Shown here piece after piece: positions 1 through 49,498 of a DNA stretch of 64,000 nucleotides. The position numbers were made by a program, and so were the translations under genes. Below the pieces are notes generated by a model that searched no databases, was not told the DNA's origin, and saw nothing but the letters and a program-made list of their open reading frames with translations. The stretch's first letter is position 1. Every line of letters begins with the position of its first letter. Source of the stretch: Shouchella hunanensis. GTDB lineage: Bacteria > Bacillota > Bacilli > Bacillales > Bacillaceae_D. The DNA lies in the NCBI RefSeq assembly GCF_028735875.1, contig NZ_CP117834.1:124001-188000 (forward strand), in the 5' to 3' direction.

Positions 1-64
1 CTGCATTTAGTCCCAATGGTGTAACAGCACCAATACCTGTAACAACTACTCGTCGTTTCTCCAC
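1..64 (-). CDS. fabF: FabF, 3-oxoacyl-ACP synthase II (N-terminus only, runs off the window)
   Basis: Only the first 21 codons lie in the window. They read MEKRRVVVTGIGAVTPLG, the typical N-terminus of the KAS II condensing enzyme that elongates acyl-ACP with malonyl-ACP in type II fatty acid synthesis. The start is a GTG at 62-64 preceded by AAAGGAG (74-80 on the complementary strand). It sits about 40 bases downstream of fabH in the same orientation, so the two are probably co-transcribed, as in Bacillus. The catalytic Cys-His-His triad is outside the window. Confidence 0.88.
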   Translation of the reverse strand, partial: MEKRRVVVTGIGAVTPLGLNA

Positions 65-107
65 TATAGTTCGCTCCTTTATTTACGTTTAATAATCTAA
101 CTTTTCA

Positions 108-1043
108 TTAACGTCCCCAGCGCAAAGCAACAGAACCCCATACAAGACCTGCTCCAAAGCCTACTAGCACTAGTACATCACCGTCTTTAATTTTCCCAGC
201 CTCAAGTTCCTCTACCATAGCCATTGGAATGGATGCGGATGAGGTATTTCCAAATTTATTTACGGTGACTGACATTTTTTCTTTCGGTAATTCTAATCGT
301 TCACGAGATGCTTCCATAATTCGAATATTCGCTTGGTGAGGAACAAGGAAATCAACATCTTCCTTTGTTAAGCCAGCTTTCGTTAGTGCTCGAATGGATG
401 AATCTCCCATTTGACGAACAGCAAACTTAAATACTTCGCGACCATTCATTTCAATAAATTCATTTTTCTTATTAATATGCATGCCGCCAGATCCATCTGA
501 ACCTAGGTCAAATGCTAGGATACCACGATCTTCTGAGACTGGTCCTACGACACACGCACCTGCTCCATCACCAAATAGAACGGCTGTATTTCGATCGTTC
601 ATATCAGTTACTTTTGTTAACTTCTCCACGCCTATAACAAGAACATGTTGATAAGCACCTGTTTCAATAAACTGTTGTGCTGTAGCAATTCCGTATATAA
701 AACCAGCGCAAGCAGCACTAATATCCATTGCTGCTGCTTTTGTCGCCCCTAAGCGATTTTGTACAATCGACGATACACTTGGAAACGGCATGTCAGGTGT
801 AACAGTTGCAACTAAAATTAAATCAATCTCTTCTGCCTTTACTTCTGCCGATTCAAGGGCTTTTCTTGCTGATTGATAAGCCATTTCTGACGTTTCTACG
901 TCTTCAGCAAAACGTCGTTCTTCAATACCGGTTCTTGTACGAATCCATTCATCTGACGTTTCTAAAAAGGATTCAAAATCTTTATTTGTAACTACTTTTT
1001 CAGGAACAAAGCGTCCCATACCGAGTAAGCCTGCTTTAGCCAT
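108..1043 (-). CDS. fabH: FabH, 3-oxoacyl-ACP synthase III
   Basis: KAS III catalyses the first condensation of fatty acid synthesis, joining an acyl-CoA primer to malonyl-ACP in the cytoplasm; in bacilli its preference for branched primers sets membrane composition. The 311-residue protein has the full Cys-His-Asn triad: C112 in SAACAGF, H236 in PHQANI and N266 in FGNTSS. The length is normal for the family. It leads a fabH-fabF operon whose promoter carries a FapR operator at 1072-1090, so repression by FapR relieved by malonyl-CoA is expected. The ATG start at 1043 follows AAGGGGAATATCC. Confidence 0.96.
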
Positions 1044-1071
1044 GGATATTCCCCTTCCATATCGAACAGAA

Positions 1072-1118
1072 ATTAGTACCTGATACTAATATTAGCAAAC
1101 AATTTAAGAAACTGTCTA
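1072..1118 (-). promoter_or_regulatory. fabH promoter with FapR operator
   Basis: On the minus strand a -35 TAGACA (1113-1118) and -10 TAATAT (1089-1094) are 18 bases apart. An inverted repeat ATTAGTATCAGGTACTAAT (1072-1090) begins right at the -10 box. This matches the FapR operator (TTAGTACC-N-GATACTAA type) that controls Bacillus lipid genes, and its position would block transcription initiation. A second partial TTAGTACTAG lies just upstream of the -35. Confidence 0.82.
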
Positions 1119-1153
1119 GTACTAATTCTATTCAATTAGAATGGAACCCTTTT

Positions 1154-1465
1154 TTAAACGTCATTTAGCCCTTTTAACAGCGCCTCAAACCATTTATCCA
1201 AATCTGTTTTCATCTTCTCTTCCGCTTCATTTGCAGCCGTTTGCTGTTTTATTTTTTCATACGAAGACATAAAAGGTTCGATTTGACCTGTTTTAAATTG
1301 AGCGACTGCATAATAATAGAAGATTTGAATTGGTAAGTGATCCGCTTGCTCTAACATGCCAATAAATGGCGCCATCGTCTCTAGTCCTTTATCATACTCA
1401 CCTTTCTTTATGTATGAAATCCCTTCCTGAACCGGCTTCATAAAGCGCTGCAATGGCTGTGTCAT
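1154..1465 (-). CDS. Small TPR-like hypothetical protein downstream of comZ
   Basis: I do not recognise this 103-residue protein with confidence. It is predicted to be all helical, and the segment from about residue 15 to 75 (IKKGEYDKGL, then FYYYAVAQFKTGQ) looks like one or two TPR-type helical hairpins. Its ATG overlaps the comZ stop codon by four bases (ATGA), so it is translationally coupled to comZ. In B. subtilis the same place, between comZ and fabH, is held by the small gene yjzB; this may be its positional counterpart, but I cannot show homology. No signal peptide or membrane segment is seen. Confidence 0.75.
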   Translation of the reverse strand: MTQPLQRFMKPVQEGISYIKKGEYDKGLETMAPFIGMLEQADHLPIQIFYYYAVAQFKTGQIEPFMSSYEKIKQQTAANEAEEKMKTDLDKWFEALLKGLNDV

Positions 1466-1650
1466 GCTTCTTCGCTATCTTTCTGCCCTAACTCATACGC
1501 TTCATTCATCACTTTGGTAAACAATGCTAACATGGGCTGCAAATCGTCAAATCCTAGTTCAATCCCTTTTCCTTCTAACAATTCTTTAGCCTCTGGCACA
1601 TATTTCATTGCAATCTGCATAAATGCCATGTTTTTTTCTTGTTCAGTCAT
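1462..1650 (-). CDS. comZ: ComZ family competence regulator
   Basis: The 62-residue protein contains FMQIAMKYVPEAKELLE and LFTKVMNEAYELG, the core of the ComZ family. ComZ in B. subtilis lowers transcription of the late competence operon comG. The ATG at 1648-1650 is chosen because AAAAAGGAGGCTG sits at ideal spacing before it; longer readings in the same frame have no ribosome site. In B. subtilis comZ follows med and precedes yjzB-fabH-fabF. Here the downstream order is kept, but med is absent and the upstream neighbour is a divergent prfC. Confidence 0.85.
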   Translation of the reverse strand: MTEQEKNMAFMQIAMKYVPEAKELLEGKGIELGFDDLQPMLALFTKVMNEAYELGQKDSEEA

Positions 1651-1795
1651 CTGTACAGCCTCCTTTTTATCTTTCTTAACGTAACTGATTGTATTTTGAT
1701 TCGCAAGTGAATTGCCCCAATCTAAAAAAGGAAAGTGAAACGGAAAGAAAAACTTGTTATAATAGGTAAATCGACGTTTGGAAATGAGGATGAAC

Positions 1796-3400
1796 ATGAA
1801 CGGAACATTAACAGATAAAATTAATTCAAGACGCACATTTGCGATTATTTCTCACCCAGATGCAGGAAAAACAACGCTTACGGAAAAACTATTGCTTTTT
1901 GGTGGTGCGATTCGTGAAGCTGGAACTGTAAAAGGAAGAAAGAACGCGAAACATGCAACAAGTGATTGGATGGAAATAGAAAAGCAACGTGGGATATCTG
2001 TAACAAGCTCTGTACTTGAATTTTTGTACAACGGCTACCATGTCAATATTTTGGATACACCAGGACACGAAGACTTTTCAGAAGATACGTATCGGACTTT
2101 AACTGCTGCTGATTCAGCAACCATGTTAATTGATGCCGCTAAAGGAGTAGAAGCCCAAACAAAGAAATTGTTTAAAGTGTGTAAGCTTCGCGGTATCCCC
2201 ATTTTTACGTTTATTAATAAATTGGATCGACAAGGTAGAGACCCGTTTGAACTAATGGAAGAACTTGAAAATCTGCTAGGAATTCGATCTTTTCCAATGG
2301 GATGGCCAATTGGGATGGGCCAGTCATTCAAAGCCGTTTACGATCGTGTAAATAAACGTTTAGAACTCTACAACCCAAACAACCCGAAGGATATTGATAT
2401 TATTAGCGTCACTGGTCCAGATGATCCGAAAATTGACGAAGTTGTTAAAGACGAAGGGCTTGTACAGCAATTTCGTGAAGAGTTAGAGCTTCTTGACGTA
2501 GCTGGTGATGAGTACGATTTAGAGCGAATTAACAATGGCGAGCTCACACCTATTTTCTTCGGATCCGCTATTTCTAGTTTTGGAGTACAGACTTTTCTTG
2601 AACACTTCTTAAGCTTATCACCTGCGCCTAGCCCTCGCGATAGTTCTATTGGAACGATCGACCCGATGGAACGCGAACAATTCTCTGGCTTTATATTTAA
2701 AGTACAAGCGAATATGAATGCCAAACACCGTGATCGGGTAGCGTTTTTACGGATAACGTCAGGTACATTTAAGCGAGGCATGTCTGTTAAGCATGTCCGA
2801 ACGAATAAACCATTGAAACTTGCACAGCCTACACAATTTTTGGCGCAAAGTCGGAGCATTGTAGACGAGGCGTATGCGGGTGATATTATTGGCTTATTTG
2901 ACCCAGGGCATTTCCGGATTGGCGACACATTGGTTGAAGGCGATTCATTTGAATTTAGCGAGATGCCACACTTTTCACCTGAGCATTTTTCAGCTATCAC
3001 AGTAAAAGAAGCGCTTAAGCATAAATCGTATGAAAAAGGGCTACAGCAGCTGACAGAAGAAGGGGCTATCCAGCTCTTTCGTACGTATAATAAATACGTT
3101 GAACAACAAATTGTTGGCGTTGTTGGCGTTCTTCAGTTTGAAGTGCTCGAACATCGATTGAAAAGCGAGTATCATGTAGATATTCAAATGAGCCGTCAGC
3201 CATTTTCTTTTGCACGTTGGATTGATGGTGATGAAAAAGAGTTGAGCGTATTTAAAGAAAAACAGCGAAATTTAGTTACAGATCGTGAAGATCGTATCGT
3301 TGCTTTATTTGAAAATGAATTTCAAATGCGGACAGCGCAGGAAAAATACCCTAACCTACAGTTTTATGAAAACTCGTTTTATAAGAAAACCGTTGAATAA
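1796..3400 (+). CDS. prfC: Peptide chain release factor 3 (RF3)
   Basis: RF3 is the GTPase that recycles RF1/RF2 from the ribosome after peptide release. The 534-residue protein begins with the translation-GTPase G1 motif SHPDAGKTT, followed by DTPGHEDFSEDT (G3) and NKLDR (G4). The RF3-specific stretch AKHATSDWMEIEKQRGISV is present, and the C-terminal part matches RF3 domains II-III in length. Four in-frame starts (TTG 1778, ATG 1784, 1790, 1796) precede the conserved region. The last is preferred because TGAGGA ends five bases before it. A TATAAT at 1758-1763 is a plausible -10. The gene is divergent from comZ and convergent with the STAS gene. RF3 is uncommon in Bacillus relatives. Confidence 0.93.
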   Translation: MNGTLTDKINSRRTFAIISHPDAGKTTLTEKLLLFGGAIREAGTVKGRKNAKHATSDWMEIEKQRGISVTSSVLEFLYNGYHVNILDTPGHEDFSEDTYRTLTAADSATMLIDAAKGVEAQTKKLFKVCKLRGIPIFTFINKLDRQGRDPFELMEELENLLGIRSFPMGWPIGMGQSFKAVYDRVNKRLELYNPNNPKDIDIISVTGPDDPKIDEVVKDEGLVQQFREELELLDVAGDEYDLERINNGELTPIFFGSAISSFGVQTFLEHFLSLSPAPSPRDSSIGTIDPMEREQFSGFIFKVQANMNAKHRDRVAFLRITSGTFKRGMSVKHVRTNKPLKLAQPTQFLAQSRSIVDEAYAGDIIGLFDPGHFRIGDTLVEGDSFEFSEMPHFSPEHFSAITVKEALKHKSYEKGLQQLTEEGAIQLFRTYNKYVEQQIVGVVGVLQFEVLEHRLKSEYHVDIQMSRQPFSFARWIDGDEKELSVFKEKQRNLVTDREDRIVALFENEFQMRTAQEKYPNLQFYENSFYKKTVE

Positions 3401-3428
3401 AAAAACCAGCCAAATGGCTGGTTTTTTT
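3401..3428. terminator. Bidirectional terminator between prfC and the STAS gene
   Basis: AAAAACCAGCC-AAAT-GGCTGGTTTTTTT forms a stem with T-runs on both strands. It lies directly after the prfC stop and at the end of the convergent gene. Confidence 0.9.
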
Positions 3429-4176
3429 ACATATGCTTACGAATCATTTCAGCTAAACTACCGTTAAATTGAGTTCGTTTCTGAATATCATTTCCGTGTA
3501 ATAGCTGTGCATGTTCTGGTCTTAAACCGATAACTCGTGTTTCAATTCCCATGATTTGTAGAGCTTGGACTAAACGTAGCAACTCTCTCATCCCTAGGTT
3601 AGTGATGTTACCAACACCACTAAAGTCGAAGAAAAGATAGTCATAATCGGCTTGATACACATTTTTTGAGATGACTCCCTGATTTTGCTTAATTAAATGT
3701 TCATCTAAGTCACCAAAAAACGGTACAAATGCAAGCTCAGCTGATATGGCAATAAACGGAGCTGAAAGTTGTTTAATCATACTTAAAGATTCTTCAAGCT
3801 CTTCTTTTTTCTCAAGCAGTTCAAAGTCTGTCTGTGCCAAGCGTCTGCTTTGCTTTTGAACCTTTTCAATCAGCTCTGTTAAGTTTCCATCTTGTTTAAT
3901 ACAAATAATATGGAAACGCTCTTCGTCCCAATGTGCAAACAATGTATGCAGTACATAAGGAGCTTCTATTGTATCCATATTTAATTCGATCTTCCCGTTT
4001 TCTTGTTTAGAAAGAAAGCGGGTTACTTTATCCACACTTCCTATATCTAAAAGATCGATAAACGAATCAGCTAGTTTAAACGCTTGTTTAGCTACAGTGG
4101 ATCGATTCAAAATTCGATACGTTTCGTCTAACTCAAAATAGGGAACTGGTAAACGATTAATTGCGGACATCCGCAC
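3427..4176 (-). CDS. PAS-like / coiled-coil / STAS protein (RsbR-like)
   Basis: The 249-residue protein has three parts. Residues 10-95 resemble a degenerate PAS fold (YFELDETYRILNRS, then FHIICIKQDG). Residues 100-135 are a charged coiled coil. Residues 138-249 are a STAS domain of the RsbR type (PFIAISAELAFVPFFGDLD, DFSGVGNITNLGM, IGLRPEHAQ). RsbR paralogues form the stressosome that releases RsbT and activates sigma B; their N-terminal domains are the sensors, for example LOV in YtvA. The DITGV motif of RsbR reads DFSGV (184-188), so a phosphorylatable serine remains there. The start overlaps the upstream B12-domain gene by 20 bases, which argues that the two products act together. Confidence 0.82.
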   Translation of the reverse strand: MRMSAINRLPVPYFELDETYRILNRSTVAKQAFKLADSFIDLLDIGSVDKVTRFLSKQENGKIELNMDTIEAPYVLHTLFAHWDEERFHIICIKQDGNLTELIEKVQKQSRRLAQTDFELLEKKEELEESLSMIKQLSAPFIAISAELAFVPFFGDLDEHLIKQNQGVISKNVYQADYDYLFFDFSGVGNITNLGMRELLRLVQALQIMGIETRVIGLRPEHAQLLHGNDIQKRTQFNGSLAEMIRKHM

Positions 4177-4816
4177 TCACCCCTAATTGTCTTTCCTGCC
4201 ATTTAGCTAGTTCTGTTAAGTTTCCAATTAATACGGTCTGATTATTACAGAGCGGACTTAAGTCGTACATTGAGACAAGTCGTCCACCAATTACAATCGT
4301 TGGTTTATGGGGTAATTTTTCTAACGTATCAACATACAAATTCAAACTACGGGCGTGATAGGGAATAGACACTGAAATGGCAATGGCATCGGGCTGCCAT
4401 TTCTTCGCCATCATCTCCGCTTGCTCGAGGGGGACACTTGCTCCTAATAGACGTGTCGTCCAGCCAAGCTCTTCCAATAAACAGGCGCACATTTTGATGC
4501 CTAGATCATGTTGCTCTTGATCTAAACATAGAAACATGACGCTTTTACCGTTTTTAGGCGCTCGCCATTTTCGTATATAATAGTGATAGCGTGTCAATAC
4601 AAAATCGCACGTTGACGTAGCTAAGTGCTCATCAGCAATTGTAATTCGATTCTGTTCCCATAGCCATCCAGTATGAACCATTGCTTTCGTTAATAATTTT
4701 TCATATATCCAAATACTATCATACCCAGCATCAGAAAGGCGACGGACACAATTCCAAGCACGATCTTCATCTCCATCAAGCAAGGCGTCTACTAACACTT
4801 CCCATGACTGCTCCAT
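4157..4816 (-). CDS. Stand-alone cobalamin-binding domain protein, CarH-type photosensory module
   Basis: The 219-residue protein is made only of the two B12-binding sub-domains. The helical cap (residues 1-80) carries W53-x9-E63-H64 (WEQNRITIADEH), the signature of the CarH/LitR adenosylcobalamin photoreceptor family. The Rossmann-like part has E101-x-H103-x-x-G106, with H103 as predicted lower axial ligand; the usual first Asp is Glu. SVS (148-150) and GG (177-178) follow. The MerR-type DNA-binding domain of CarH is missing, so output must go through a partner, most likely the overlapping PAS-STAS gene downstream. GGAGGAGG precedes the ATG at 4816. Cobalamin binding is well supported by motif; light sensing is inference. 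Confidence 0.85.
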   Translation of the reverse strand: MEQSWEVLVDALLDGDEDRAWNCVRRLSDAGYDSIWIYEKLLTKAMVHTGWLWEQNRITIADEHLATSTCDFVLTRYHYYIRKWRAPKNGKSVMFLCLDQEQHDLGIKMCACLLEELGWTTRLLGASVPLEQAEMMAKKWQPDAIAISVSIPYHARSLNLYVDTLEKLPHKPTIVIGGRLVSMYDLSPLCNNQTVLIGNLTELAKWQERQLGVSADVRN

Positions 4817-4917
4817 TAAACGTTCCGCCTCCTCCCAACCATTGTCCTTATTTACCTAGTTTAAGAGTAAAGGTTTTGTCCTACGAACGCAAGTACGAAC
4901 AGCTGCTGGAAAACCAG

Positions 4918-5586
4918 TTATTTTAAGTCATTTTGTCGGATCCACTTTTTTTCTGCCTCCTTGTATGCTCTGCGCCCCTCATCAAGAGACCATTTTGGCG
5001 AAAAAGGGAGAAAGTCCTCATTTTCTTCGTCACTTCCAATTACCGAATACGTCCCATTCTCTTTTTCAATAGCAGCATACACATAATCCACTAAATCGTT
5101 AATGTAAAGCAAATCCCGATTGCCTTGATTTATTTGTTCATCAATATACGAAAACGATAGATTGCTGTGTAATCCGTACGCTTGTGGACTACGCAAAATA
5201 ATAAGAGAGAATGGTGTGGAAGATGCCAATGCCTTTATCTCTTCTTCCATTGTGGTGCGCGTTTCCCCTTTTCTTGTTGTTGATAGATAAAGCAGACGAT
5301 CATGCTGATGTAAGCCAGAAGCAAATGCGAGTACTTCTTCTTTCTTTTCATTATCTGCGACGTACACATAAGTAGCATTATCGCTTAACGGTCTAAACTC
5401 GTTTACGTTTTTATGGATAAACGTAAAGTGTGCATTCCTCCCCATACTCATTTCAATCATTTGTTTTTCCTGTGTCTTTTCTACCATGTGGTCAACAGCG
5501 ACCACTTCCCAACCTTCATCAAGAAATTTCGCGCACACATGACTCCCAATAAAACCCAAACCACCAATAACCGTTAGTTGATTCAT
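4918..5586 (-). CDS. NAD(P)-dependent epimerase/dehydratase-like SDR (YjaV-like)
   Basis: This 222-residue protein starts with a Rossmann nucleotide-binding loop (TVIGGLGFIGSHVCAKFLDE) followed by an acidic VDH, as in extended short-chain dehydrogenases. It is short for that family, about 300 residues being usual, and I do not see a clear YxxxK catalytic pair, so it may be non-catalytic or bind NAD(P) for another role. The neighbourhood (YjzC, YjaU and this gene between argF and comZ) matches B. subtilis yjzC-yjaU-yjaV, so orthology to YjaV is likely. The gene follows the YjaU-like gene by about 30 bases. Confidence 0.8.
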   Translation of the reverse strand: MNQLTVIGGLGFIGSHVCAKFLDEGWEVVAVDHMVEKTQEKQMIEMSMGRNAHFTFIHKNVNEFRPLSDNATYVYVADNEKKEEVLAFASGLHQHDRLLYLSTTRKGETRTTMEEEIKALASSTPFSLIILRSPQAYGLHSNLSFSYIDEQINQGNRDLLYINDLVDYVYAAIEKENGTYSVIGSDEENEDFLPFSPKWSLDEGRRAYKEAEKKWIRQNDLK

Positions 5587-5618
5587 TTTACTAACTCCTT
5601 TCCTTCGTCAGAGCACCA

Positions 5619-6275
5619 TTACGTTGCTGAGATAAAGGTTTGATAAAAACCACTTAGCTCGTTCGCCAACGTGCGAGTTCCAGATAAATTCACTTTCGTT
5701 GACTCTTCTGCGCTGTCTCTTTTCACATGCTGTAAAAACGACTGGACTGGTAAATGGTAGGCTGTAAATAGTTTTGTATCCAAATTTGCTACTATCTTTC
5801 TATCACAATGCTTTAACCCATATTGTCTACTCATTTCTTTTTTAAATCGTTTTAACGTGACCTCGTCATCTTGGTAATGAAGAAAACAGTCTTCTAAGGA
5901 CAAGAGTGGATTAATAAAGGCTGCAGCTCGTATATGAATGTCATCTGAGCAACATAACTGCTGCGCTATAAGCGCCCCTGTTCCTTCCGCACATAAGAAT
6001 ATTTTTTCGTTAATGGTTTCTTGACGCAATAAAAGCTGAATTAAATGTTCAGCATGCTTTACCGCTTTTTTTGAACCCCATTCAGCAATTAAGAGCCCTG
6101 AAGAAAATACGGTATACCCTTTTTTTACAAATGGATCAATAAAGTGCTCAGCATGACCTGAATGGAGGGTTTGATAATCAAGTAACATAAATATGGCATA
6201 GCCGTTAGGCTTCTCCGGAATACAATAGCTATTTTTACAGCCATTTAAGTCAATGTAGCGGACATAAACAGGCAT
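5619..6275 (-). CDS. Degenerate alpha/beta-hydrolase-fold protein (YjaU-like)
   Basis: The roughly 218-residue protein has the outline of an alpha/beta hydrolase. A strand plus nucleophile-elbow region reads KIFLCAEGTGALIAQQL, but where family members have GxSxG this one has A-E-G-T-G, so the nucleophilic serine is gone. A catalytic role is therefore doubtful. The position between YjzC and the YjaV-like gene fits B. subtilis YjaU. Two ATGs are possible (6284 and 6275); the inner one is preferred because AGGAG ends only two bases before the outer one. Confidence 0.68.
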   Translation of the reverse strand: MPVYVRYIDLNGCKNSYCIPEKPNGYAIFMLLDYQTLHSGHAEHFIDPFVKKGYTVFSSGLLIAEWGSKKAVKHAEHLIQLLLRQETINEKIFLCAEGTGALIAQQLCCSDDIHIRAAAFINPLLSLEDCFLHYQDDEVTLKRFKKEMSRQYGLKHCDRKIVANLDTKLFTAYHLPVQSFLQHVKRDSAEESTKVNLSGTRTLANELSGFYQTFISAT

Positions 6276-6370
6276 AGTGTCCATCTCTCCTGAACGATAT
6301 AGATTCGTAATAGCTTATGTTTTTCCAGCAAAAAGTGAAAGCAAATTAGAAAAGAAATTCATCAATCCAT

Positions 6371-6411
6371 AAAAAAAAGCTATACACACCTATTGAAAGG
6401 GTGTACAGCTT
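6371..6411 (-). terminator. Terminator after yjzC / arginine operon
   Basis: On the minus strand AAGCTGTACACCC pairs imperfectly with GGTGTGTATAGCTT across a short loop and is followed by eight T. It ends transcription from argF-yjzC before the YjaU-like gene. Confidence 0.8.
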
Positions 6412-6426
6412 GGTCATGTGAGATGG

Positions 6427-6606
6427 TTATGGCTTACGTTTTTGCGTCCATTTTCGATCATCATTTGTTAATTCTGGAAAAACATCTCCAGCTTGCAAAT
6501 GAACCGATTTTGGACGAGTAACCATACTTCCGGTTTCACCAATTTCGACGTAAATTCCATTATTAGGCGCTTTTTGTCCAGCAGTAAATTGTTTGTTTTG
6601 GCCCAT
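6427..6606 (-). CDS. yjzC: YjzC family small protein
   Basis: This 59-residue protein starts MGQNKQFTAGQKAPNNGIY and continues with VEIGETGSMVTRPKSVHL, the hallmark of the YjzC family. The function is unknown; the family is widespread and small in Bacillales. The ATG at 6604-6606 has AAAGGTGGTGGAG before it. It lies 35 bases downstream of argF, as in B. subtilis, and is followed by a terminator at 6371-6411. Confidence 0.88.
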   Translation of the reverse strand: MGQNKQFTAGQKAPNNGIYVEIGETGSMVTRPKSVHLQAGDVFPELTNDDRKWTQKRKP

Positions 6607-6641
6607 TTCTCCACCACCTTTAACAAAAAGGATTCCCTACA

Positions 6642-7598
6642 CTAGCATCCATTATGTGAAATTACAGAGGCCAAAATAGCTTTTTGAACATGAAGTCGAT
6701 TTTCTGCTTGATCGTATACAACAGATTGTGCACTATCAATGACTCCGCTTGTCACTTCTTCATCTCGATGTGCAGGAAGACAATGCATAAATATCGCCTT
6801 CGAATCAGCTTCAGCCATTAAGCCTTCATTTACTTGATAGGGTTTCAAGTCTTGACTATGTTTGCTTTGCTCGTTTTCATAACCCATACTCGTCCATACG
6901 TCTGTATAGATGATGTCAGCTCCTTTAGCCGCGACGAGTGGATCCTGCTCCACCTTAATGATCGCACCGGTCTCCTTTGCTTGTTCCTTCGCTCGAACGA
7001 AAATTTCGCTATCGACTTCGTAACCATCAGGGCTTGAAATCGTAACATTCATCCCTGTTTTGGCACCCACAGCCATTAAAGAGTGAGCTACATTGTTTCC
7101 ATCACCAACATATACAAGGGTGAGGCCTTTCAAAGCCCCTTTTTTCTCTTTAATCGTCAGAGCATCAGCAAGCGCTTGACAAGGGTGATAGGCGTCTGTT
7201 AAAGCGTTAATAACAGGAACCGTTGCATGGGTTGCAAATTCCTCTACAGTTTGATGTGAGTTCGTTCGAATCATGATGGCGTCAACATAACGAGATAGTA
7301 CATTTGCCGTATCTTTTATTGGCTCTCCTCGACCAATTTGTAAGTCTTTCGGGCTTAAAAATAATGCATGCCCACCTAATTGTGTCATCCCTACCTCAAA
7401 CGACACTCGAGTTCTTGTTGACGCGTTCTCAAAAATCATACCGAGTGATTTCCCGCGTAAAAGTTCGTTTAACTCTCCCTTTTGAGTCGCTTGTTTTAAT
7501 TCACTTGCTTTCATTAATAAATAATCAATTTCCTCGACGGTATAGTCAAGCAAGGTTAACATATGTTTTCCGGTTAAATTGATGGCAGTGCTTTGCAT
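6642..7598 (-). CDS. argF: Ornithine carbamoyltransferase
   Basis: This enzyme joins carbamoyl phosphate to ornithine to give citrulline. The 318-residue protein has the carbamoyl-phosphate loop S60-T-R-T-R64, the HPCQ motif and HCLPAHR, the ornithine-binding loop. The ATG at 7598 is preferred over a start 13 codons upstream because AAAAAGGAGTCGACACT lies directly before it. The start overlaps the end of carB by 25 bases, so translation is probably coupled, and product channelling of carbamoyl phosphate is suggested by the order. Confidence 0.96.
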   Translation of the reverse strand: MQSTAINLTGKHMLTLLDYTVEEIDYLLMKASELKQATQKGELNELLRGKSLGMIFENASTRTRVSFEVGMTQLGGHALFLSPKDLQIGRGEPIKDTANVLSRYVDAIMIRTNSHQTVEEFATHATVPVINALTDAYHPCQALADALTIKEKKGALKGLTLVYVGDGNNVAHSLMAVGAKTGMNVTISSPDGYEVDSEIFVRAKEQAKETGAIIKVEQDPLVAAKGADIIYTDVWTSMGYENEQSKHSQDLKPYQVNEGLMAEADSKAIFMHCLPAHRDEEVTSGVIDSAQSVVYDQAENRLHVQKAILASVISHNGC

Positions 7599-10500
7599 AG
7601 TGTCGACTCCTTTTTCACATTTAATGGGTCTCGCCACTCCGCTATTGACTTTAATCGGAAGGACGGATGATCATAATAATAAAGACTGGCAGCAACGGTA
7701 GCTTGTTCTGTAAAGACCGACAATTGCTGTGCAAGCGCTTGATGGCGATACCTTTCATTGCCTGGTTGCCCTGGTAGTGTTAGGTCAATTAGCGCCTTCG
7801 CGCCAGTTGTTTCAATCCACTTTTCAAATTGGTCCGTTTCAATGGTAAAGCCAGCTTCTTGCAGTAAAGGTGAGACGTATTCTTCTATGCCAGCTTCTAC
7901 CTGTAAGAAAACGGATTTGTTCAGATGATCTTCAAACAATGATGGCAACGTCTCAAATGGTGCACTTACTTTCGCTAGAGCCTCTTCTGGCGTTTCACCG
8001 ATCATTAATAATTCTCCCGTTGATTTCATTTCTGCTCCTAATTTTGGATCAAGACCAGACAATTTCCCGTATGAGAATACAGGTGCTTTAGCCGCAAAGA
8101 AGGACGGCTTCTGTTTTCTTATAGGAAGCTGATCAATGGTTTCCCCTAGCATTAATCTTGTTGCATAAGCAACAAATGGTTCACCTGTTAGCTTTGCGAG
8201 GAGTGGCACTGTACGAGAAGCACGAGGATTTACTTCAATAACATAAATGTCCTCTCCTTGCACAACAAATTGAATGTTAAAAATGCCCTTGAAGGCCATC
8301 GCATCGGCTAGTTTTTTGGCGATGATTTCTAAACGATTCTGAATCGCATTGCTTACACGATAAGGTGGCGTAATAGCCAAACTATCGCCAGAGTGAACGC
8401 CTGCTTGTTCCACATGTTCAAACATACCAGCGACATAAATCTCTTCTCCATCTGTTAACACATCCACATCTATTTCAACACCTTGTACATACGTATCCAT
8501 AAGGAGTGGAAATAACCCTTTATACGGATGATCCTTTAAATAATCTTCCACTTGTTCTTTCGTTTGTAATATGGCCATCCCTTGACCTCCAATAACAAAC
8601 GAAGGTCGCACTAACATTGGAAATGTTGCTTCATCACAATAATCGAACGCTTCCTCTATCGATGAAACGGCCACACCAGGAATCGGTTCCACGCCAATTG
8701 TTGAAAGTAATGTATAAAAAGCATCACGTTCTTCCAGCTCATCTACACAAGCGGAAGAAACACCAAATACATGAATTCCTGCTTGTTCAAGCTCCTTTGT
8801 CAGTTTTATGCCAGTCTGACCACCTAGCGTTACAACAACGCCTTCAACATGTTCATGATTTACAATAGCCACTACATCTTCAAGAGCGAGAGGTTCAAAG
8901 TAAAGGCGGTCTGCGGTCATGTAGTCTGTGCTAACAGTCTCTGGGTTGTTATTAATGATAATGGCTTCATAACCAAGCTCACGAATCGTCTTTGCGCCAT
9001 GAACGGAACAATAATCAAATTCAATCCCCTGACCAATTCGAATAGGGCCTGAACCAATAATGATAATTTTTTTGTTGGGTGAAGGAAGACTTTCATTTTC
9101 GCCAAAGTAGCTTGAATAAAAGTAAGGTGTTTGTGCTTCAAATTCTCCAGCACATGTATCAACCATCTTATAAACAGGTTTGATTCCCATTTCTAGACGC
9201 GTGTCTCTTACTTCCACTTCAGTGACTCCCCATAGATTGGCTACGTTTTGATCGGAAAAACCTGCTTTTTTGTAGTCTTCCATTTGGCTTTTCGTTACAG
9301 ATTGTAAAGAACCGGCCTTCAAATCGTTCTCTACTTCAATTAGGCTTGCAAAACGTTGCAAGAAAAAGCGATCTATTTTCGTTTCTTGATGAAGCTCTTC
9401 AACATTTATTCCACGGCGAAGAAGTTCAAACAGAATAAAGAGGCGACGATCATCAGCTTGACTCATTAACGTCCAAAGGTAGGACGTCTCGTCTTTATCA
9501 AACTCGCCTCTTGCTAAATCTTCAATACCAATCTCCAGTGACCGAATGGCCTTTTGCAGCGCAGCACCAAAAGACCGCTCAATTGCCATCACTTCACCTG
9601 TAGCTTTCATTTGTGTCCCGAGGGTTCGATCAGCTTGATAAAATTTATCAAATGGCCAGCGTGGAAATTTTACAATGCAATAATCCAAGGCTGGTTCAAA
9701 GCTTGCGTACGTGTGACCTGTAACAGGATTTAACAGTTCGTGTAAGTGATAACCAACCGCTAACTTGGCAGCAATACGGGCAATGGGATATCCTGTTGCC
9801 TTTGATGCAAGTGCCGAAGAACGTGAAACCCGAGGATTCACTTCAATTAAGTAATATTGATCACTATGCGGATCAAGCGCAAATTGAATATTACAACCAC
9901 CGATAATGCCTAGCGCGCGAATGATTTTTGTTGAAGCCGAACGAAGCATTTGATAATCCCGGTCAGTCAACGTTTGTGATGGTGCTACAACAATTGAATC
10001 TCCTGTGTGAATGCCAACTGGGTCAATGTTTTCCATATTACAAATCGTAATACACGTATCGTTCGAATCACGCATCACTTCATACTCAATTTCTTTAAAC
10101 CCTGCAATGCTTTTTTCAATCAAGCATTGATTAATCGGGCTCTGTCTAATTCCATTGGCCACAATTGTACGCAACTGATTCACATTCTGGGCAATTCCGC
10201 CCCCGGAACCACCAAGGGTATAGGCAGGTCTAACAATAATAGGAAAATCAATTTTCTCAGAAAAAGCAACGGCTTCTTCAACCGTGTGGATAATGTCACT
10301 TTCAGGGACAGGTTCTTGTAATTCATTCATTAAATCACGGAATCGTTCTCGATCCTCCCCTTTTTTTATTGACTCAATGGGTGTGCCCAACAAGCTCACG
10401 CCATATTTCTCAAGGGTTCCTTCATCATGAAGTTTTAACGCTAAATTTAATCCTGTTTGACCACCAAGCGTAGCCAATAGACCATCTGGTTTTTCTTTTT

Positions 10501-10732
10501 TTATAATATTTTCTACTGTCGCAGCCGTCAATCGTTCAAAATAAACAACATCAGCACAGTGCTCATCTGTCATAACGGTTGCTGGGTTAGGGTTTAGTAA
10601 AATTACGCGAATGCCTTCTTCTTTTAATGCAAGACATCCTTGTGTCCCCGCATAATCAAATTCTGCTGCCTGACCAATCACAATGGGTCCTGATCCGATG
10701 ACTAACACGCTTTTTATGGAATGGTTATGCAT
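7574..10732 (-). CDS. carB: Carbamoyl-phosphate synthase large subunit (arginine pathway)
   Basis: The large subunit uses ammonia from CarA, bicarbonate and two ATP to make carbamoyl phosphate. The 1052-residue protein shows two homologous ATP-grasp halves, each starting with a dinucleotide-like motif (VLVIGSGPIVIGQAAEFDYA near residue 10; KIIIIGSGPIRIGQGIEFDY near 555). Each half carries RPAYTLGGSGGG- or RPSFVIGGQGM-type loops. The last ~130 residues correspond to the allosteric MGS-like domain but are divergent. Its placement in the arg operon, not with pyr genes, indicates the arginine-specific isozyme. It overlaps carA by 8 bases. Confidence 0.97.
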   Translation of the reverse strand: MHNHSIKSVLVIGSGPIVIGQAAEFDYAGTQGCLALKEEGIRVILLNPNPATVMTDEHCADVVYFERLTAATVENIIKKEKPDGLLATLGGQTGLNLALKLHDEGTLEKYGVSLLGTPIESIKKGEDRERFRDLMNELQEPVPESDIIHTVEEAVAFSEKIDFPIIVRPAYTLGGSGGGIAQNVNQLRTIVANGIRQSPINQCLIEKSIAGFKEIEYEVMRDSNDTCITICNMENIDPVGIHTGDSIVVAPSQTLTDRDYQMLRSASTKIIRALGIIGGCNIQFALDPHSDQYYLIEVNPRVSRSSALASKATGYPIARIAAKLAVGYHLHELLNPVTGHTYASFEPALDYCIVKFPRWPFDKFYQADRTLGTQMKATGEVMAIERSFGAALQKAIRSLEIGIEDLARGEFDKDETSYLWTLMSQADDRRLFILFELLRRGINVEELHQETKIDRFFLQRFASLIEVENDLKAGSLQSVTKSQMEDYKKAGFSDQNVANLWGVTEVEVRDTRLEMGIKPVYKMVDTCAGEFEAQTPYFYSSYFGENESLPSPNKKIIIIGSGPIRIGQGIEFDYCSVHGAKTIRELGYEAIIINNNPETVSTDYMTADRLYFEPLALEDVVAIVNHEHVEGVVVTLGGQTGIKLTKELEQAGIHVFGVSSACVDELEERDAFYTLLSTIGVEPIPGVAVSSIEEAFDYCDEATFPMLVRPSFVIGGQGMAILQTKEQVEDYLKDHPYKGLFPLLMDTYVQGVEIDVDVLTDGEEIYVAGMFEHVEQAGVHSGDSLAITPPYRVSNAIQNRLEIIAKKLADAMAFKGIFNIQFVVQGEDIYVIEVNPRASRTVPLLAKLTGEPFVAYATRLMLGETIDQLPIRKQKPSFFAAKAPVFSYGKLSGLDPKLGAEMKSTGELLMIGETPEEALAKVSAPFETLPSLFEDHLNKSVFLQVEAGIEEYVSPLLQEAGFTIETDQFEKWIETTGAKALIDLTLPGQPGNERYRHQALAQQLSVFTEQATVAASLYYYDHPSFRLKSIAEWRDPLNVKKESTLCKALPSI

Positions 10733-11801
10733 ATAGATGATCTCTCTCCTTTAGCGCCACAGTTTGAATAAACTCATCAAAAATGGCGTTTGAATCCATT
10801 GGTCCGGGGCTTGCTTCTGGGTGAAATTGTACTGTCATGATTGGTAAATGCTTGTGCATAAGCCCCTCAACGCTTTTATCGTTCACATTAACATAGCGAA
10901 CGTCAAAATCAGTCTTTTGAATGGATGCCTCGTTTACAACGTAACTATGATTTTGACTTGTCATATAGACTCGGTTCGTTTGATAGTCCAAAACGGGTTG
11001 ATTTGCTCCTCGGTGACCGAACGTTAGTTTTTCTGTTTCACCGCCAAACGCTAAAGCTAAAAGCTGATGACCTAGGCAAATCCCTAATGATGGATACGTA
11101 GTTGCCAGTTCATAGATAGTCGTTAAACAGGATTCTAGTTTTTTGGGGTTTCCGGGACCATTTGAGAAGATCAGTCCATCTGGTTTTAAAGCATCAATGG
11201 CTTCTTTTTTTGTCTCATAAGGCACTACGGTTACTTTCATTCCTTTTGCGACAAGTTCAATGGCAATAGACTGTTTATAACCGTAATCGATAAGAACAAT
11301 GTGTTTTGTTCCTTCCTCGTTGAAGATCTTTTGATCTTTCGTACTGACAAATGGGACAACATCTTTGTGTTCAAGTCCTTCGTTTTCTTTAACTGACTGA
11401 CTAGCGTCTGTTGTCATTGTTGCTTTCATATCTCCATGTTTACGAATACGTTTGACGATTGCTCTTGTATCTACTTGCGTCATATATGGAATGCCATGTT
11501 TTTCTAAGTACATACAAAAGCTCTCTACTTGACTATAATGGGAAGGATTTTCCTCTACTTCAGCTAAAATGACGCCCTCTACTTTCGGACCTTCGCTTTC
11601 AAAATCCCTTTCATTTACGCCATAGTTTCCAATCATTGGATACGTAAAGACAACAATTTGTCCTTTAAATGAAGGGTCACTAACTACTTCTTGATAACCC
11701 GTCATTCCTGTAAAGAAGACAATTTCTCCGTTAACAGGTTCCTTCCCGTGCCACAAACCTTCAAATTGCTCTCCACTCTCTAATAAAACGTACCCTTTCA
11801 C
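10725..11801 (-). CDS. carA: Carbamoyl-phosphate synthase small subunit (glutaminase)
   Basis: The 358-residue protein has the CPS small-chain N-terminal domain and a class I glutamine amidotransferase domain with the nucleophile in GICLGHQLL and the His-Glu pair in QFHPEASPGP. It supplies ammonia to CarB. The start is GTG at 11801 after GAGGTGATAGAGT. A 75-base gap before it carries a possible ARG box, whereas the other junctions of the arginine cluster are 16 bases or less, so carAB-argF may also be started or controlled separately. Confidence 0.97.
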   Translation of the reverse strand: MKGYVLLESGEQFEGLWHGKEPVNGEIVFFTGMTGYQEVVSDPSFKGQIVVFTYPMIGNYGVNERDFESEGPKVEGVILAEVEENPSHYSQVESFCMYLEKHGIPYMTQVDTRAIVKRIRKHGDMKATMTTDASQSVKENEGLEHKDVVPFVSTKDQKIFNEEGTKHIVLIDYGYKQSIAIELVAKGMKVTVVPYETKKEAIDALKPDGLIFSNGPGNPKKLESCLTTIYELATTYPSLGICLGHQLLALAFGGETEKLTFGHRGANQPVLDYQTNRVYMTSQNHSYVVNEASIQKTDFDVRYVNVNDKSVEGLMHKHLPIMTVQFHPEASPGPMDSNAIFDEFIQTVALKERDHLYA

Positions 11802-11816
11802 ACTCTATCACCTCGT

Positions 11817-11856
11817 AAAGAATAAATATTCTTTTTATCGGATAAAAATACATTTA
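11817..11856 (-). promoter_or_regulatory. Candidate ARG box region upstream of carA
   Basis: The minus strand reads ATGTATTTTTATCCGAT close to an AT-rich palindrome AGAATATTTATTCT. Both resemble the AhrC/ArgR box (TGAATAAAAATTCA type). This is the only gap of real size in the arginine cluster. The match is by eye only. Confidence 0.45.
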
Positions 11857-11876
11857 TGTGTAAAAAAAATGCCCGT

Positions 11877-13028
11877 TTATCCGTTTTGTTCAATGTCTGT
11901 TAAAACAGTCTTTAGTATTAGTTGAGCTTCTTTCCACTCTTGTTTCGTTATTGTAAGTGGCGGTAATAATCTAGTTACATGAGCACCTGCAGGCAATAAT
12001 AACAATCCTCTTTCTTCACACCTATGAATAACTTGCTGTGCTTCCACTGTCGTTTCAAGTCCAATAAGGAAGCCACTGCCACGGATGTCTTTCACAATAG
12101 AACATGTGGATAGCTCTTTTTTTAATTCTTTTACCCATTCGTCTGCATGCGTGCGGATCGTTGTCAAGAACGCAGGTTCATAAATGTCTAAAACAGCTTT
12201 TACAATAGCCATTCCTAACGGATTTCCACCGAACGTTGAGCCGTGTGAGCCTGCTTGAAACGATTCAATTAATGGTTTCTTTCCTAACATGGCGCCGACT
12301 GGGAACCCGTTTCCTAGTCCTTTAGCGACCGTCACAATATCCGGATCCAACCGATAGTGTTCATAAGCAAAAAACGTACCTGTTCGACCGATTCCTGTTT
12401 GGATTTCATCAATGATTAGCAAAAGATTGTGTTTTTCTTTAAGGGTGTTGATGGCTTCCACATACGCTTCGTTGATCACATGTACGCCACCTTCTCCTTG
12501 AACAACTTCAATCATAATGGCGGCTGTATCCTCTTGCACGGCTAATTCGAGTGCATCGGTATCGTTAAAATCAACATAGGTAAAGGAAGATAGTAAAGGA
12601 CCGTATCCTTCATGAATAGCGGCTTGACCTGTGGCGGCCATAGAACCTAGCGTTCTTCCATGGAACGATTGCTTCATCGATATAATATGTGACTTGCCAG
12701 TAGCTTTTCTAGCAAGCTTGATTGCTGCTTCATTTGCTTCTGCACCGCTATTGCAGAAAAACACCGCATCACAACTACTTTTTTCAACAAGCTGTTTTGC
12801 TGCTTGTTCTTGAACTTCATAATGGAATAAGTTGGAGCCATGCCATAATAAATCTGCCTGTTTGTGCAATGCTTGCACGATACTTGGGTGATTATGCCCT
12901 AAATTCGTAACGGCGATGCCAGACATAAAATCAAGGTATCGTTTGCCGTCTTGACTGTATAAAAACGCTCCCTTACCTTGGGTTAACTGGATATCTTTCT
13001 TTTTATAAGTAGGAAATAAATAGCTCAT
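11877..13028 (-). CDS. argD: Acetylornithine aminotransferase
   Basis: This PLP-dependent class III aminotransferase converts N-acetylglutamate semialdehyde to N-acetylornithine. The 383-residue protein shows FCNSGAEANEAAIKLARK, the LIIDEIQTGIGRTG cofactor motif and VAKGLGNGFPVG with the Schiff-base lysine. The ATG at 13028 (MSYLFPTY) is preferred because TGGAG precedes it by six bases; an ATG four codons upstream has no ribosome site. It follows argB by 15 bases. Confidence 0.95.
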   Translation of the reverse strand: MSYLFPTYKKKDIQLTQGKGAFLYSQDGKRYLDFMSGIAVTNLGHNHPSIVQALHKQADLLWHGSNLFHYEVQEQAAKQLVEKSSCDAVFFCNSGAEANEAAIKLARKATGKSHIISMKQSFHGRTLGSMAATGQAAIHEGYGPLLSSFTYVDFNDTDALELAVQEDTAAIMIEVVQGEGGVHVINEAYVEAINTLKEKHNLLLIIDEIQTGIGRTGTFFAYEHYRLDPDIVTVAKGLGNGFPVGAMLGKKPLIESFQAGSHGSTFGGNPLGMAIVKAVLDIYEPAFLTTIRTHADEWVKELKKELSTCSIVKDIRGSGFLIGLETTVEAQQVIHRCEERGLLLLPAGAHVTRLLPPLTITKQEWKEAQLILKTVLTDIEQNG

Positions 13029-13043
13029 AATCGACTCCATTCT

Positions 13044-13808
13044 TTATGGGACAAGCGTTCCTTTCTCAATAACCGTGCCACTTTCTACAGTTAATCGCTC
13101 TTTTCCACTTACAATACGCACTCGCTGCAAATGTTCAGAAAGACTATTCAGTGCACCTGTCACTTTAGGAATCATTCCGCCTGTAATGTCCCCTTGTTCA
13201 ATAAATTTCTTAATGTCTATTTCATTTAGTTTAGCTTGTTTCTCGGCTTTAATATAAACACCATCTACATCAGTCACAACAATAAACTCTTCTGCAGCTA
13301 AAGCTTTTGCCACGGATGAAGCAACTGTATCTGCATTAATATTTACTTGCTTGCCACATGCCGTTAAGCCTAACGGAGAAACAACCGGAACCATTTGTTC
13401 ACGAAGTGCCGTTTCTAACACTTCTGTATGAACCATCTTCACATCACCAACTAAGCCTAATCGTTGTTCATCCATTAAAGTTGCATGAATGAAACGGTGA
13501 TCATACCCGTTTAACGAAATCGCGTTCATTCCTAGAGCTTGAAGTTGATTAACAATGGATTGGTTCACCTGATGAAACAAGACATCCTTTACAATCGTTA
13601 GCACCGGTGCAGTTGTCTTTCGTAACCCTTGTTCAAATTCGACTTCAATGTTGGCTTTCTGCAATTGGTCATTAATAGCTGGCCCACCACCGTGAACGAT
13701 AATAAGTTCCTCACCTGAGCGCTGACGCTCAATTAGACCATTGTAAAAATCTTCACTAAGTTCAGCTAGCATGCTTCCACCAATTTTTATAACCGTTCGT
13801 TTGCTCAC
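13044..13808 (-). CDS. argB: Acetylglutamate kinase
   Basis: The kinase phosphorylates N-acetylglutamate in the second step of arginine synthesis. The 254-residue amino-acid-kinase fold starts KRTVIKIGGSML, has IIVHGGGPAIN for substrate binding and VVTDVDGVY near the ATP site. A GTG at 13808 with AGGAGG nine bases upstream is the best start; longer readings in frame run into the argJ coding region without a ribosome site. The N-terminal extension that makes the enzyme arginine-sensitive in some bacteria is absent, as expected when ArgJ recycles acetyl groups. Confidence 0.95.
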   Translation of the reverse strand: MSKRTVIKIGGSMLAELSEDFYNGLIERQRSGEELIIVHGGGPAINDQLQKANIEVEFEQGLRKTTAPVLTIVKDVLFHQVNQSIVNQLQALGMNAISLNGYDHRFIHATLMDEQRLGLVGDVKMVHTEVLETALREQMVPVVSPLGLTACGKQVNINADTVASSVAKALAAEEFIVVTDVDGVYIKAEKQAKLNEIDIKKFIEQGDITGGMIPKVTGALNSLSEHLQRVRIVSGKERLTVESGTVIEKGTLVP

Positions 13809-13821
13809 GTATGATGACCTC

Positions 13822-15051
13822 CTAAGTACGATACCCTGCATTGATACGAACATAGTCATAGGATAAATCACAGCCCCATGCTTTCCCTACTCCTGTACCT
13901 ACATGGAGATTAACTGAAATAACGATCGTTTCTTCATCTGTCATATAAGTCGTTATCGCTTTATCGTTCGTTCCGCATGGTTCGCTTTCCTTTAGCGTTG
14001 CATATGGACCAATAGCAATATCAATTAGATCCGGAGAAATCGTGCAACCACTATAACCAATTGCACAAATAATCCTACCCCAATTGCCATCTTTCCCAAA
14101 TACTGCTGTCTTCACTAAATCGGAACCTACTATTGTTTTCGCTATTATTCCTGCTTCGTCATTGGATTTTGCACCAACTACCTGTACCTCAATAAGCTTT
14201 GTCGCACCTTCTCCATCTCGAGCAATCATTTTAGCAAGCTCTGTTGCACAAAGCTGAAATGCTTCTTGAAAAACAGCCCATTGTGGATGGTCTTGGTTAA
14301 GCTGATTATGCTGCACCTTGTTAGACGCCAAGGCAAGAACCATATCATTTGTAGAGGAGTCACCGTCTACGGTTATTCGATTGAATGTTTTATTTGTTAC
14401 GTCTTTTAATAATTGTTGTAGCTCGTTGCCTTGAATCGTTGCGTCTGTAACTAAAAAACTAAGCATCGTCGCCATATTTGGATGTATCATCCCCGAACCT
14501 TTTGCAACCCCAGCAATACGAACTGCCTGCTCATCGATAACAAATTCTACACAAATTTCTTTTGTTGTCGTATCTGTTGTTAGAATGGCTTCCGCAAAGC
14601 TTGCTTGGCTTTCTGTTAATGATAACGTTTTGATTCCTGTTCTTACTTTCTTCATTGGCAACGGTTCGCCAATCACACCTGTCGAAGAAACAGCCACATC
14701 GGTTTCATTGAGATTTAATTTCTCTGCTACACATTTTTGCATTTCCTCGGCATCAATCATCCCTTGTTTACCCGTACAAGCGTTGGCATTGCCGCTATTT
14801 ACAACGACTGCTTGTAACGTACCTGTAGTTTCAATAAGAGATTTCGTAAGACGAAGCGGCGCTGCTTGGATTTGATTTGTCGTAAATACACCAGCTGCCT
14901 CTGCTACGTTCGAACAATAAATGAGTCCAAGATCAGGTTTTTCTCGTTTTAACCCGCAATGAGTGCCAGCTGTATGAAACCCTTGCACATCGTCAATACA
15001 GCCGTTTTTTATTATGTTTATCTGTTCATGTTGTTGCTCATTTAAAATCAC
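13822..15051 (-). CDS. argJ: Bifunctional ornithine acetyltransferase / N-acetylglutamate synthase
   Basis: ArgJ transfers the acetyl group from N-acetylornithine to glutamate, closing the cyclic arginine pathway; many bacillary versions can also use acetyl-CoA. The 409-residue precursor carries the self-cleavage site in KGSGMIHPNMATML, where the threonine after Ala becomes the N-terminal nucleophile of the beta chain. The start is GTG at 15051 with GGAGG seven bases upstream. The gene follows argC by 13 bases. Confidence 0.96.
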   Translation of the reverse strand: MILNEQQHEQINIIKNGCIDDVQGFHTAGTHCGLKREKPDLGLIYCSNVAEAAGVFTTNQIQAAPLRLTKSLIETTGTLQAVVVNSGNANACTGKQGMIDAEEMQKCVAEKLNLNETDVAVSSTGVIGEPLPMKKVRTGIKTLSLTESQASFAEAILTTDTTTKEICVEFVIDEQAVRIAGVAKGSGMIHPNMATMLSFLVTDATIQGNELQQLLKDVTNKTFNRITVDGDSSTNDMVLALASNKVQHNQLNQDHPQWAVFQEAFQLCATELAKMIARDGEGATKLIEVQVVGAKSNDEAGIIAKTIVGSDLVKTAVFGKDGNWGRIICAIGYSGCTISPDLIDIAIGPYATLKESEPCGTNDKAITTYMTDEETIVISVNLHVGTGVGKAWGCDLSYDYVRINAGYRT

Positions 15052-49385: not shown

Positions 49386-49498
49386 CTGCACCTCCTCATA
49401 ACATAAGACTCGCCATTTTAGGCAGGAGCGTATCCGTTTAACACCTAATCCGCGCGGTTGTAAGTTCATTGGGTGCCACCAAATCACTAACACACATC
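49386..49498 (-). ncRNA. L21 leader (cis-regulatory RNA of rplU)
   Basis: The leader between the promoter and rplU contains stretches able to pair and the typical Bacillus L21-leader feature order: TGGTGGCACCCAATG, then ACCGCGCGGATTAGGTG and CGCTCCTGCC near the ribosome site. This fits the autoregulatory RNA known before rplU in Bacilli. Assignment is by resemblance; a covariance-model search would be decisive. Confidence 0.7.

Follow-up and report, generated by a model that had tools for sequence, protein, structure and literature searches.

Overlapping cobalamin and PAS-STAS genes in Shouchella hunanensis: probable core of a split photocobilin-type receptor with stressosome output

Introduction

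Positions 124,001 to 188,000 of Shouchella hunanensis contig NZ_CP117834.1 (64,000 nucleotides, hereafter the window) raise the question of what a stand-alone cobalamin-binding protein with the marks of a light sensor does beside a PAS-STAS protein resembling stressosome subunits. The two are encoded by overlapping reverse-strand genes and are here called P0001 and P0002. To our knowledge, the signals received by stressosomes are mostly unknown, with blue light perceived through YtvA as the clear exception. A first-pass annotation of this DNA had read the pair as a CarH-type domain and a STAS protein forming a split photoreceptor. Gene anatomy, motifs, predicted folds, co-inheritance and the exchange of output domains, as described below, suggest that the two genes probably encode the central parts of a split receptor of photocobilin type with stressosome output.

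A Stand-Alone Cobalamin Protein of Photocobilin Type

The features of the upstream gene, all on the reverse strand, are:

4157..4816, reverse strand: P0001, stand-alone CarH/photocobilin-type cobalamin-binding protein, 219 amino acids (open reading frame and domain searches)
4595..4798, reverse strand: helical B12-binding_2 domain, P0001 residues 7-74 (Pfam PF02607, 51.2 bits)
4271..4540, reverse strand: Rossmann B12-binding domain, P0001 residues 93-182 (Pfam PF02310, 44.6 bits)
4625..4660, reverse strand: W53-x9-E63-H64, adenosyl-pocket marks of CarH and photocobilins (from the sequence; role according to excerpts of PMC10979010)
4499..4516, reverse strand: E101-x-H103-x-x-G106, cobalt-ligand histidine motif of P0001 (from the sequence)

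Both cobalamin domains exceed their Pfam cut-offs, and the domain search found nothing else in the 219 residues, neither a globin domain nor a DNA-binding domain, the latter in agreement with the first-pass annotation. The two motifs which it had pointed out are present as well. A profile scan of genome contigs yielded 311 relatives of the B12 gene, the best 80 of which were retained (L048-L127). Both motifs are kept in 80/80, with G50, W53, E63, H64, E101, H103, G106 and P129 invariant and G125 found in 79. These invariant motifs argue for adenosylcobalamin (AdoCbl) binding by P0001. The genome also carries a Cob_adeno_trans gene (169.7 bits), and AdoCbl can therefore probably be made from imported B12.

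CarH, proposed at first as the closest type, had to be replaced. In a single-sequence PDB search the photocobilin 8j2w ranked first with 70.9 bits, versus 28.8 for CarH and 20.0 for AerR, and a profile of the B12 family gave 85.1, 42.9 and 32.5 bits, respectively. The NCBIfam CarH model scored 45.9 bits, its cut-off being 400. Judged by sequence, the closest solved relatives of P0001 are photocobilins and not CarH. Residue 54, directly after W53, is Glu in P0001 (E in 73, Q in 6 and L in 1 of the 80 relatives), presumably at the position of CarH His132, the second His used in the CarH light state. Because Glu replaces this His, a light state like that of photocobilins is more to be expected. 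Excerpts of the photocobilin study describe a Trp stacked on the adenosyl ribose, a Glu-His pair that bridges the dimer and a light state in which the bis-His cobalamin of CarH is absent (PMC10979010).

That P0001 serves a methyltransferase system as its corrinoid protein, the alternative named alongside the first proposal, is scarcely credible. NCBIfam corrinoid models do score 16-30 bits with P0001, but the best of them reaches 29.6 bits against a cut-off of 215.3 and the others less, all far under cut-offs of 215 and more. Moreover, no methyltransferase was recognised by eye among the open reading frames of window positions 1-14000, and the conserved neighbours are sensory.

The PAS-Coiled Coil-STAS Partner

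The downstream gene comprises the following features:

3427..4170, reverse strand: P0002, PAS-coiled coil-STAS protein, 247 amino acids, with GTG at 4176 as alternative start (open reading frame, domain searches and structure model)
3892..4170, reverse strand: PAS domain, P0002 residues 1-93
3766..3888, reverse strand: signalling helix, P0002 residues 95-135 (structure model; predicted local distance difference test score, pLDDT, of 52-78 by block)
3430..3765, reverse strand: STAS domain, P0002 residues 136-247, opening with an LSAP motif of RsbR/YtvA type (135-138) (domain searches and structure model)
4157..4170, reverse strand: overlap of the P0001 and P0002 genes, 14 bases (20 with the GTG 4176 start)
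4178..4184, reverse strand: Shine-Dalgarno-like AGGGGTG for P0002 (by eye)

The overlap of 20 bases stated earlier presumes the GTG start; the ATG at 4170, with AGGGGTG ahead of it, gives 14, which is the commonest overlap among the 80 relatives under a simple start-codon rule. The domain order proposed for P0002 was borne out by a Pfam STAS match (23.8 bits, cut-off 22.6) and by a structure model predicting a PAS domain, a long helix (95-135) and a STAS domain, with YtvA as the top whole-chain fold match. The NCBIfam model YtvA_fam scores 61.9 bits over residues 120-230, under its cut-off of 250, and the STAS sequence is closest to YtvA and RsbR. The N-terminus is modelled as PAS and not as the non-haem globin domain of RsbR. 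The flavin-binding Cys motif of LOV domains (NCRFLQ-like) was not seen by eye in P0002; a LOV-STAS protein of the same genome carries NCRFLQ.

The sites of the two phosphorylated Thr of RsbR are occupied by E157 and N191 in P0002. Across 71 relatives, Thr stands at these sites in 1 and 5 and Ser in 6 and 3, and the LOV-STAS protein of the genome has Lys and Ala. YtvA likewise is not known to possess the phosphorylated Thr of RsbR. P0002 would therefore act as a modulating subunit.

Co-inheritance of the Pair and Exchange of its Output

Neighbours in the 80 loci were called with a simple open reading frame caller, which may miss some genes. Still, a gene starting at most 90 bases from the stop of the B12 gene shares the N-terminal domain of P0002 in 80/80 loci. 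Its C-terminus is an in-frame STAS domain in 71; in L069 the STAS domain lies in a second, shifted frame, L116 is interrupted, and seven partners end differently (L071, L097, L114, L117, L120, L122, L125). Because these loci are the closest relatives, a sample of 397 genomes of the order was added, each profile being run on the same set with E-value thresholds of 1e-25 for the B12 gene and 1e-6 for the PAS domain. This search for co-occurrence, which the first-pass annotation had named as a check, found the B12 gene in 177 and the PAS domain in 176 genomes: both in 170, only the B12 gene in 7, only the PAS domain in 6 and neither in 214. Among the matches listed, at least 126 of 150 PAS matches lie directly beside a B12 match, and 24 have no B12 neighbour listed. 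One genome (G018) retains both genes at separate loci (L028 and L146), and the overlapping pair also occurs outside the order but within its class, in genome G589 (L152). Thus, the B12 gene and its PAS partner form one unit.

Two further observations concern the fate of single members. Genome G156, in which the B12 gene has no match, encodes a PAS-kinase of the same family (L145:3012-4160, forward strand), so that the PAS adaptor can outlive its B12 partner. Genomes G120, G200, G225 and G353 have several B12 genes each, of which one neighbours photoglobin and a different one the PAS partner; a division of labour between the copies is possible. Alkalihalophilus pseudofirmus OF4, a laboratory alkaliphile, also has two copies (L064 and L124).

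The output type was assigned by reading frame length to the 150 PAS matches listed (240-310 amino acids for STAS, at least 365 for kinase, 180-230 for short partners), with examples only checked directly. Among 138 genomes typed in this way, 119 have STAS, 14 kinase and 12 short partners, some having more than one type. The kinase type is exemplified by L143 (genome G101), with the gene order B12, PAS-histidine kinase, monooxygenase and photoglobin and with Pfam HisKA and HATPase matches of 32.9 and 81.5 bits.

Short partners align with the dimerisation region of the kinases but have no ATPase domain (hhalign probability 91, E-value 1e-6, 49 columns; seven short and three kinase sequences). 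In 0/7 of them is a His aligned to the phospho-acceptor of the kinases; three from Alicyclobacillus have a His one position off. A gene of 1184-1273 amino acids, belonging to a single cluster, adjoins the pair in 7/7 short-partner loci. The CheB motif GASAGG occurs in six of these seven giants, and none of the 73 other loci has a gene with it. The two giants tested with Pfam (L071 and L114) contain CheB, CheR, PAS, HisKA and HATPase domains, and the kinase-stump partner may dock on the neighbouring giant. Since the partner C-terminus varies between STAS, histidine kinase and kinase stump, the B12 domain with the PAS adaptor is the constant part and the output a plug-in.

Among the kinase-type loci, the PAS-kinase of L143 (3090-4196, forward strand) reads AEELRRP where relatives read AHEIRNP, its ATPase domain still being present; from the sequence, its phospho-acceptor His seems lost. 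In the B12-PAS-kinase pair of L144 (3009-3713 and 3658-4800, forward strand), EH of the B12 domain is replaced by EY, and the adenosyl pocket or the light response may be lost there.

Photoglobin, Haem Monooxygenase and a Second Chromophore

Directly upstream of the B12 gene, a photoglobin (bilin-globin fold) gene is found in 44 and an IsdG-like haem monooxygenase gene in 42 of the 80 loci. Across the order, photoglobin is present in 152/177 genomes with the B12 gene versus 8/220 others. Among the matches listed (77 photoglobin, 87 B12), 57 photoglobin genes are linked to a B12 gene, 15 are unlinked and 5 undecidable. As both proteins usually accompany the B12 gene, a bilin is a likely second chromophore, though biliverdin is not the sole product which IsdG-family enzymes can form. 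In S. hunanensis the photoglobin and monooxygenase genes form a pair at a different locus, with the photoglobin gene at 3.311 Mb, and a bilin input would exist only if the product of this distant gene meets P0001.

This neighbourhood bears on two other explanations. The first holds that the B12 domain senses cobalamin supply, namely whether AdoCbl is bound, and passes this information on via the PAS-STAS protein. Any AdoCbl-dependent assembly doubles as a B12 sensor, yet the adenosyl-pocket residues W and EH known from photocobilins (PMC10979010, in excerpt) are invariant in 80/80, and a plain B12 sensor would have no need of the bilin-globin that accompanies the gene, making this explanation unlikely. 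According to the second, P0001 senses redox state or oxygen via cobalamin, or haem breakdown, and light is incidental. The monooxygenase linkage in 42/80 loci fits this, as does the redox activity of cobalt after loss of adenosyl; the conservation of W and EH and the fact that the photocobilin relatives are proven light sensors (excerpts of PMC10979010) oppose it, and it is regarded as very unlikely.

At the distant locus, the LOV-STAS gene (YtvA-like; L129:5443-6240, forward strand, genome positions about 3307442-3308239) lies upstream of the monooxygenase-photoglobin pair, its end being about 2.4 kb away from it. Two light-type STAS inputs may therefore coexist. An acyl-CoA dehydrogenase-like gene, recognised by eye (L129:7521-8666, forward strand), ends 14 bases ahead of the haem monooxygenase gene, a possible operon.

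Connection to the Stressosome and Sigma B

The genome of S. hunanensis has an rsbR-S-T-U-V-W-sigB-rsbX operon, named by resemblance, in the gene order known from B. subtilis, and 15 STAS matches at E-values of at most 0.1, P0002 included. RsbT was found in 309/397 genomes of the order. Among typed genomes, it accompanies the STAS type in 118/119, kinase-only genomes in 3/7 and short-only genomes in 11/11. Of the 72 genomes with both PAS and RsbT matches listed, 27, which belong to two families (13 + 14), have the pair at a distance of 6.4-8.6 kb from rsbT. Besides, the rhomboid-acpS-LolA stretch which flanks rsbR in S. hunanensis is seen at 10/80 loci.

Some points speak for a light receptor whose STAS output serves another partner-switching pathway, with SpoIIAA/SpoIIAB-type partners or a further set resembling RsbT/RsbS: STAS domains are outputs of general use, histidine kinases too are found attached to the N-terminal unit, and upstream at two loci (L060 and L085) there are an RsbT-like gene and an additional STAS gene. 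However, the STAS domain of P0002 is nearest to YtvA and RsbR and retains the LSAP motif, and the RsbT counts and the location near rsbT in two families favour the stressosome, so that such a destination appears improbable. At L060 and L085, the RsbT-like genes (79.5 and 156.6 bits) precede the B12 gene by about 5.9-6.0 kb, with the additional STAS gene nearer to it; a second partner-switching set is possible there.

Proposed Mechanism and its Weighing

For the preferred reading, a split photocobilin-type receptor with stressosome output, cofactor binding, light response, protein contact and sigma-B effect are the conditional steps. P0001 would bind AdoCbl in an adenosyl-dependent, probably dimeric dark state kept by W53 and E63-H64. 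Light would cleave the cobalt-carbon bond, adenosyl would depart and the assembly of P0001 would change, as judged from its photocobilin and CarH relatives. P0001, which has no CarH-type DNA-binding domain, would dock on the PAS domain of P0002; this contact is inferred because the pairing is constant and PAS is the constant part of the exchangeable partner. By analogy with the YtvA-like architecture, the change would pass along the helix of P0002 to its STAS domain. The latter would sit among RsbR paralogues in the stressosome and alter RsbT release and thus sigma B, an entry and effect suggested by the STAS type, the co-occurrence with RsbT and the rsbT linkage. With the IsdG-like monooxygenase and photoglobin, which most relatives have and which are encoded at a distant locus here, a bilin would probably join the receptor and widen its range towards the red.

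Several points weigh against this reading. With Glu at residue 54, P0001 should not form the bis-His light state of CarH. Excerpts of PMC11796333 give GxxW, EH, GxxH and GxxxP as the light-responsive cobalamin signature; P0001 has G50xxW53, E63H64 and G125xxxP129, but GxxH reads Q100 for G, and G stands there in 25/80 relatives only. A photoglobin match is missing in 25/177 genomes with the B12 gene, and the photoglobin of S. hunanensis has Thr in place of a Cys near-invariant among relatives, so that no covalent bilin is expected there. The order-wide counts cover related genomes which are not phylogenetically independent, so that Fisher and binomial values calculated from them, which disregard common descent, are given no weight here. 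Moreover, 19 of the 145 B12 matches listed have no PAS neighbour listed, mostly in multi-copy genomes. RsbT is not specific to the STAS type, as short-partner genomes have it in 11/11, and the rsbT linkage, confined to two families, may go back to two independent events only. No clear sigma-B promoter was found upstream, with the strict motif in 1/79 versus 11/1580 background windows and the loose motif in 8/79 versus 88/1580. Finally, STAS domains also serve other pathways.

Altogether, the split photoreceptor signalling through STAS, as first proposed, stands in part: the single unit, the light-type marks, the association of the STAS type with RsbT (118/119) and the proximity to rsbT support it; that a bilin is a likely second chromophore and that a histidine kinase can replace STAS require its revision. 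A wider proposal, which could turn out either way, is a widespread four-part, two-chromophore receptor of Bacillales, in which the monooxygenase makes the bilin, photoglobin holds it, the separate AdoCbl domain couples to it and the PAS partner relays the light state to an exchangeable output (stressosome STAS, histidine kinase, or a stump with the CheB-CheR-PAS-kinase giant), giving sigma B, and with it the general stress response, a green-to-red light input distinct from YtvA.

If the preferred reading is correct, the stressosome would have a second input that relies on chromophores, B12 and probably a bilin, in an order in which 177/397 sampled genomes carry the B12 gene. A photocobilin whose parts are separate proteins joined by a plug-in PAS adaptor might be of optogenetic use. 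Moreover, the influence of light on sigma B or, in kinase-type relatives, on the kinases is predicted to depend on B12 supply.

Remainder of the Window

A ribosomal protein L21 leader lies at window positions 49396-49469 on the reverse strand (Rfam, 51.3 bits). By eye, positions 14000-64000 are otherwise ordinary chromosome, with arginine biosynthesis, pst phosphate transport, CheA-like, MinD, MreB/MreC and RadC-like genes.

Comparison with Known Systems

The paper defining the photoglobin family reportedly notes in its abstract gene-neighbourhood links with B12 and signalling domains, and it may show some such operons. Among the matches listed in searches combining stressosome or STAS with cobalamin, and for photoglobin and photocobilin, no title or start of an abstract describes a B12-PAS-STAS pair. 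The novelty claimed here is limited to the scope of these title and abstract searches; within it, the earlier view that no such system had been described holds for the pair itself. It needs restriction for photocobilins as such, as excerpts of PMC10979010 state that they act via protein contacts and mention a possible STAS/SpoIIE interaction in Saccharothrix from STRING-type analysis. PMC11796333 (SignatureFinder) names HTH, DGC, bilin domain, GAF and MEDS as fused outputs, and its main text does not contain the word STAS. Excerpts of PMC10151467 report associations of globin, B12 protein and haem oxygenase, and excerpts of PMC8508746 concern other proteins.

Like YtvA/RsbL (LOV-STAS) and the RsbR paralogues, P0002 has a PAS-class domain, a helix and a STAS domain with LSAP; unlike in YtvA/RsbL, its PAS domain is without the LOV flavin-Cys motif and the chromophore would sit on a separate protein. 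With CarH/LitR, P0001 shares the AdoCbl-pocket residues and the two-part cobalamin domain, but it has no MerR-type DNA-binding domain and has Glu54 in place of CarH His132. The AerR/AppA-type anti-repressors resemble the pair in that a cobalamin domain acts on a PAS-holding partner (PpsR/CrtJ); there, the similarity is weak (AerR 20.0 bits single, 32.5 profile) and the partner is a transcription factor. In the BBAG-2 clusters, too, globin and B12 protein have genes of their own and an enzyme degrading haem goes with them; however, according to excerpts of PMC10151467, this enzyme is a haem oxygenase of the classical kind, encoded in the cluster or elsewhere in the genome, the clusters occur in Myxococcales and other groups, and a STAS partner is unmentioned there. 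The closest counterparts are the photocobilins (SasPcob and AbPcob; PDB 8j2w, 8j2x, 8j2y), which have the same W-x9-EH and E-x-H B12 domain and a bilin-globin partner domain, and whose stand-alone forms are proposed to work via protein contacts. In contrast to these, the B12 domain, globin and output are here separate proteins, sometimes at separate loci, and the output is carried by the PAS partner.
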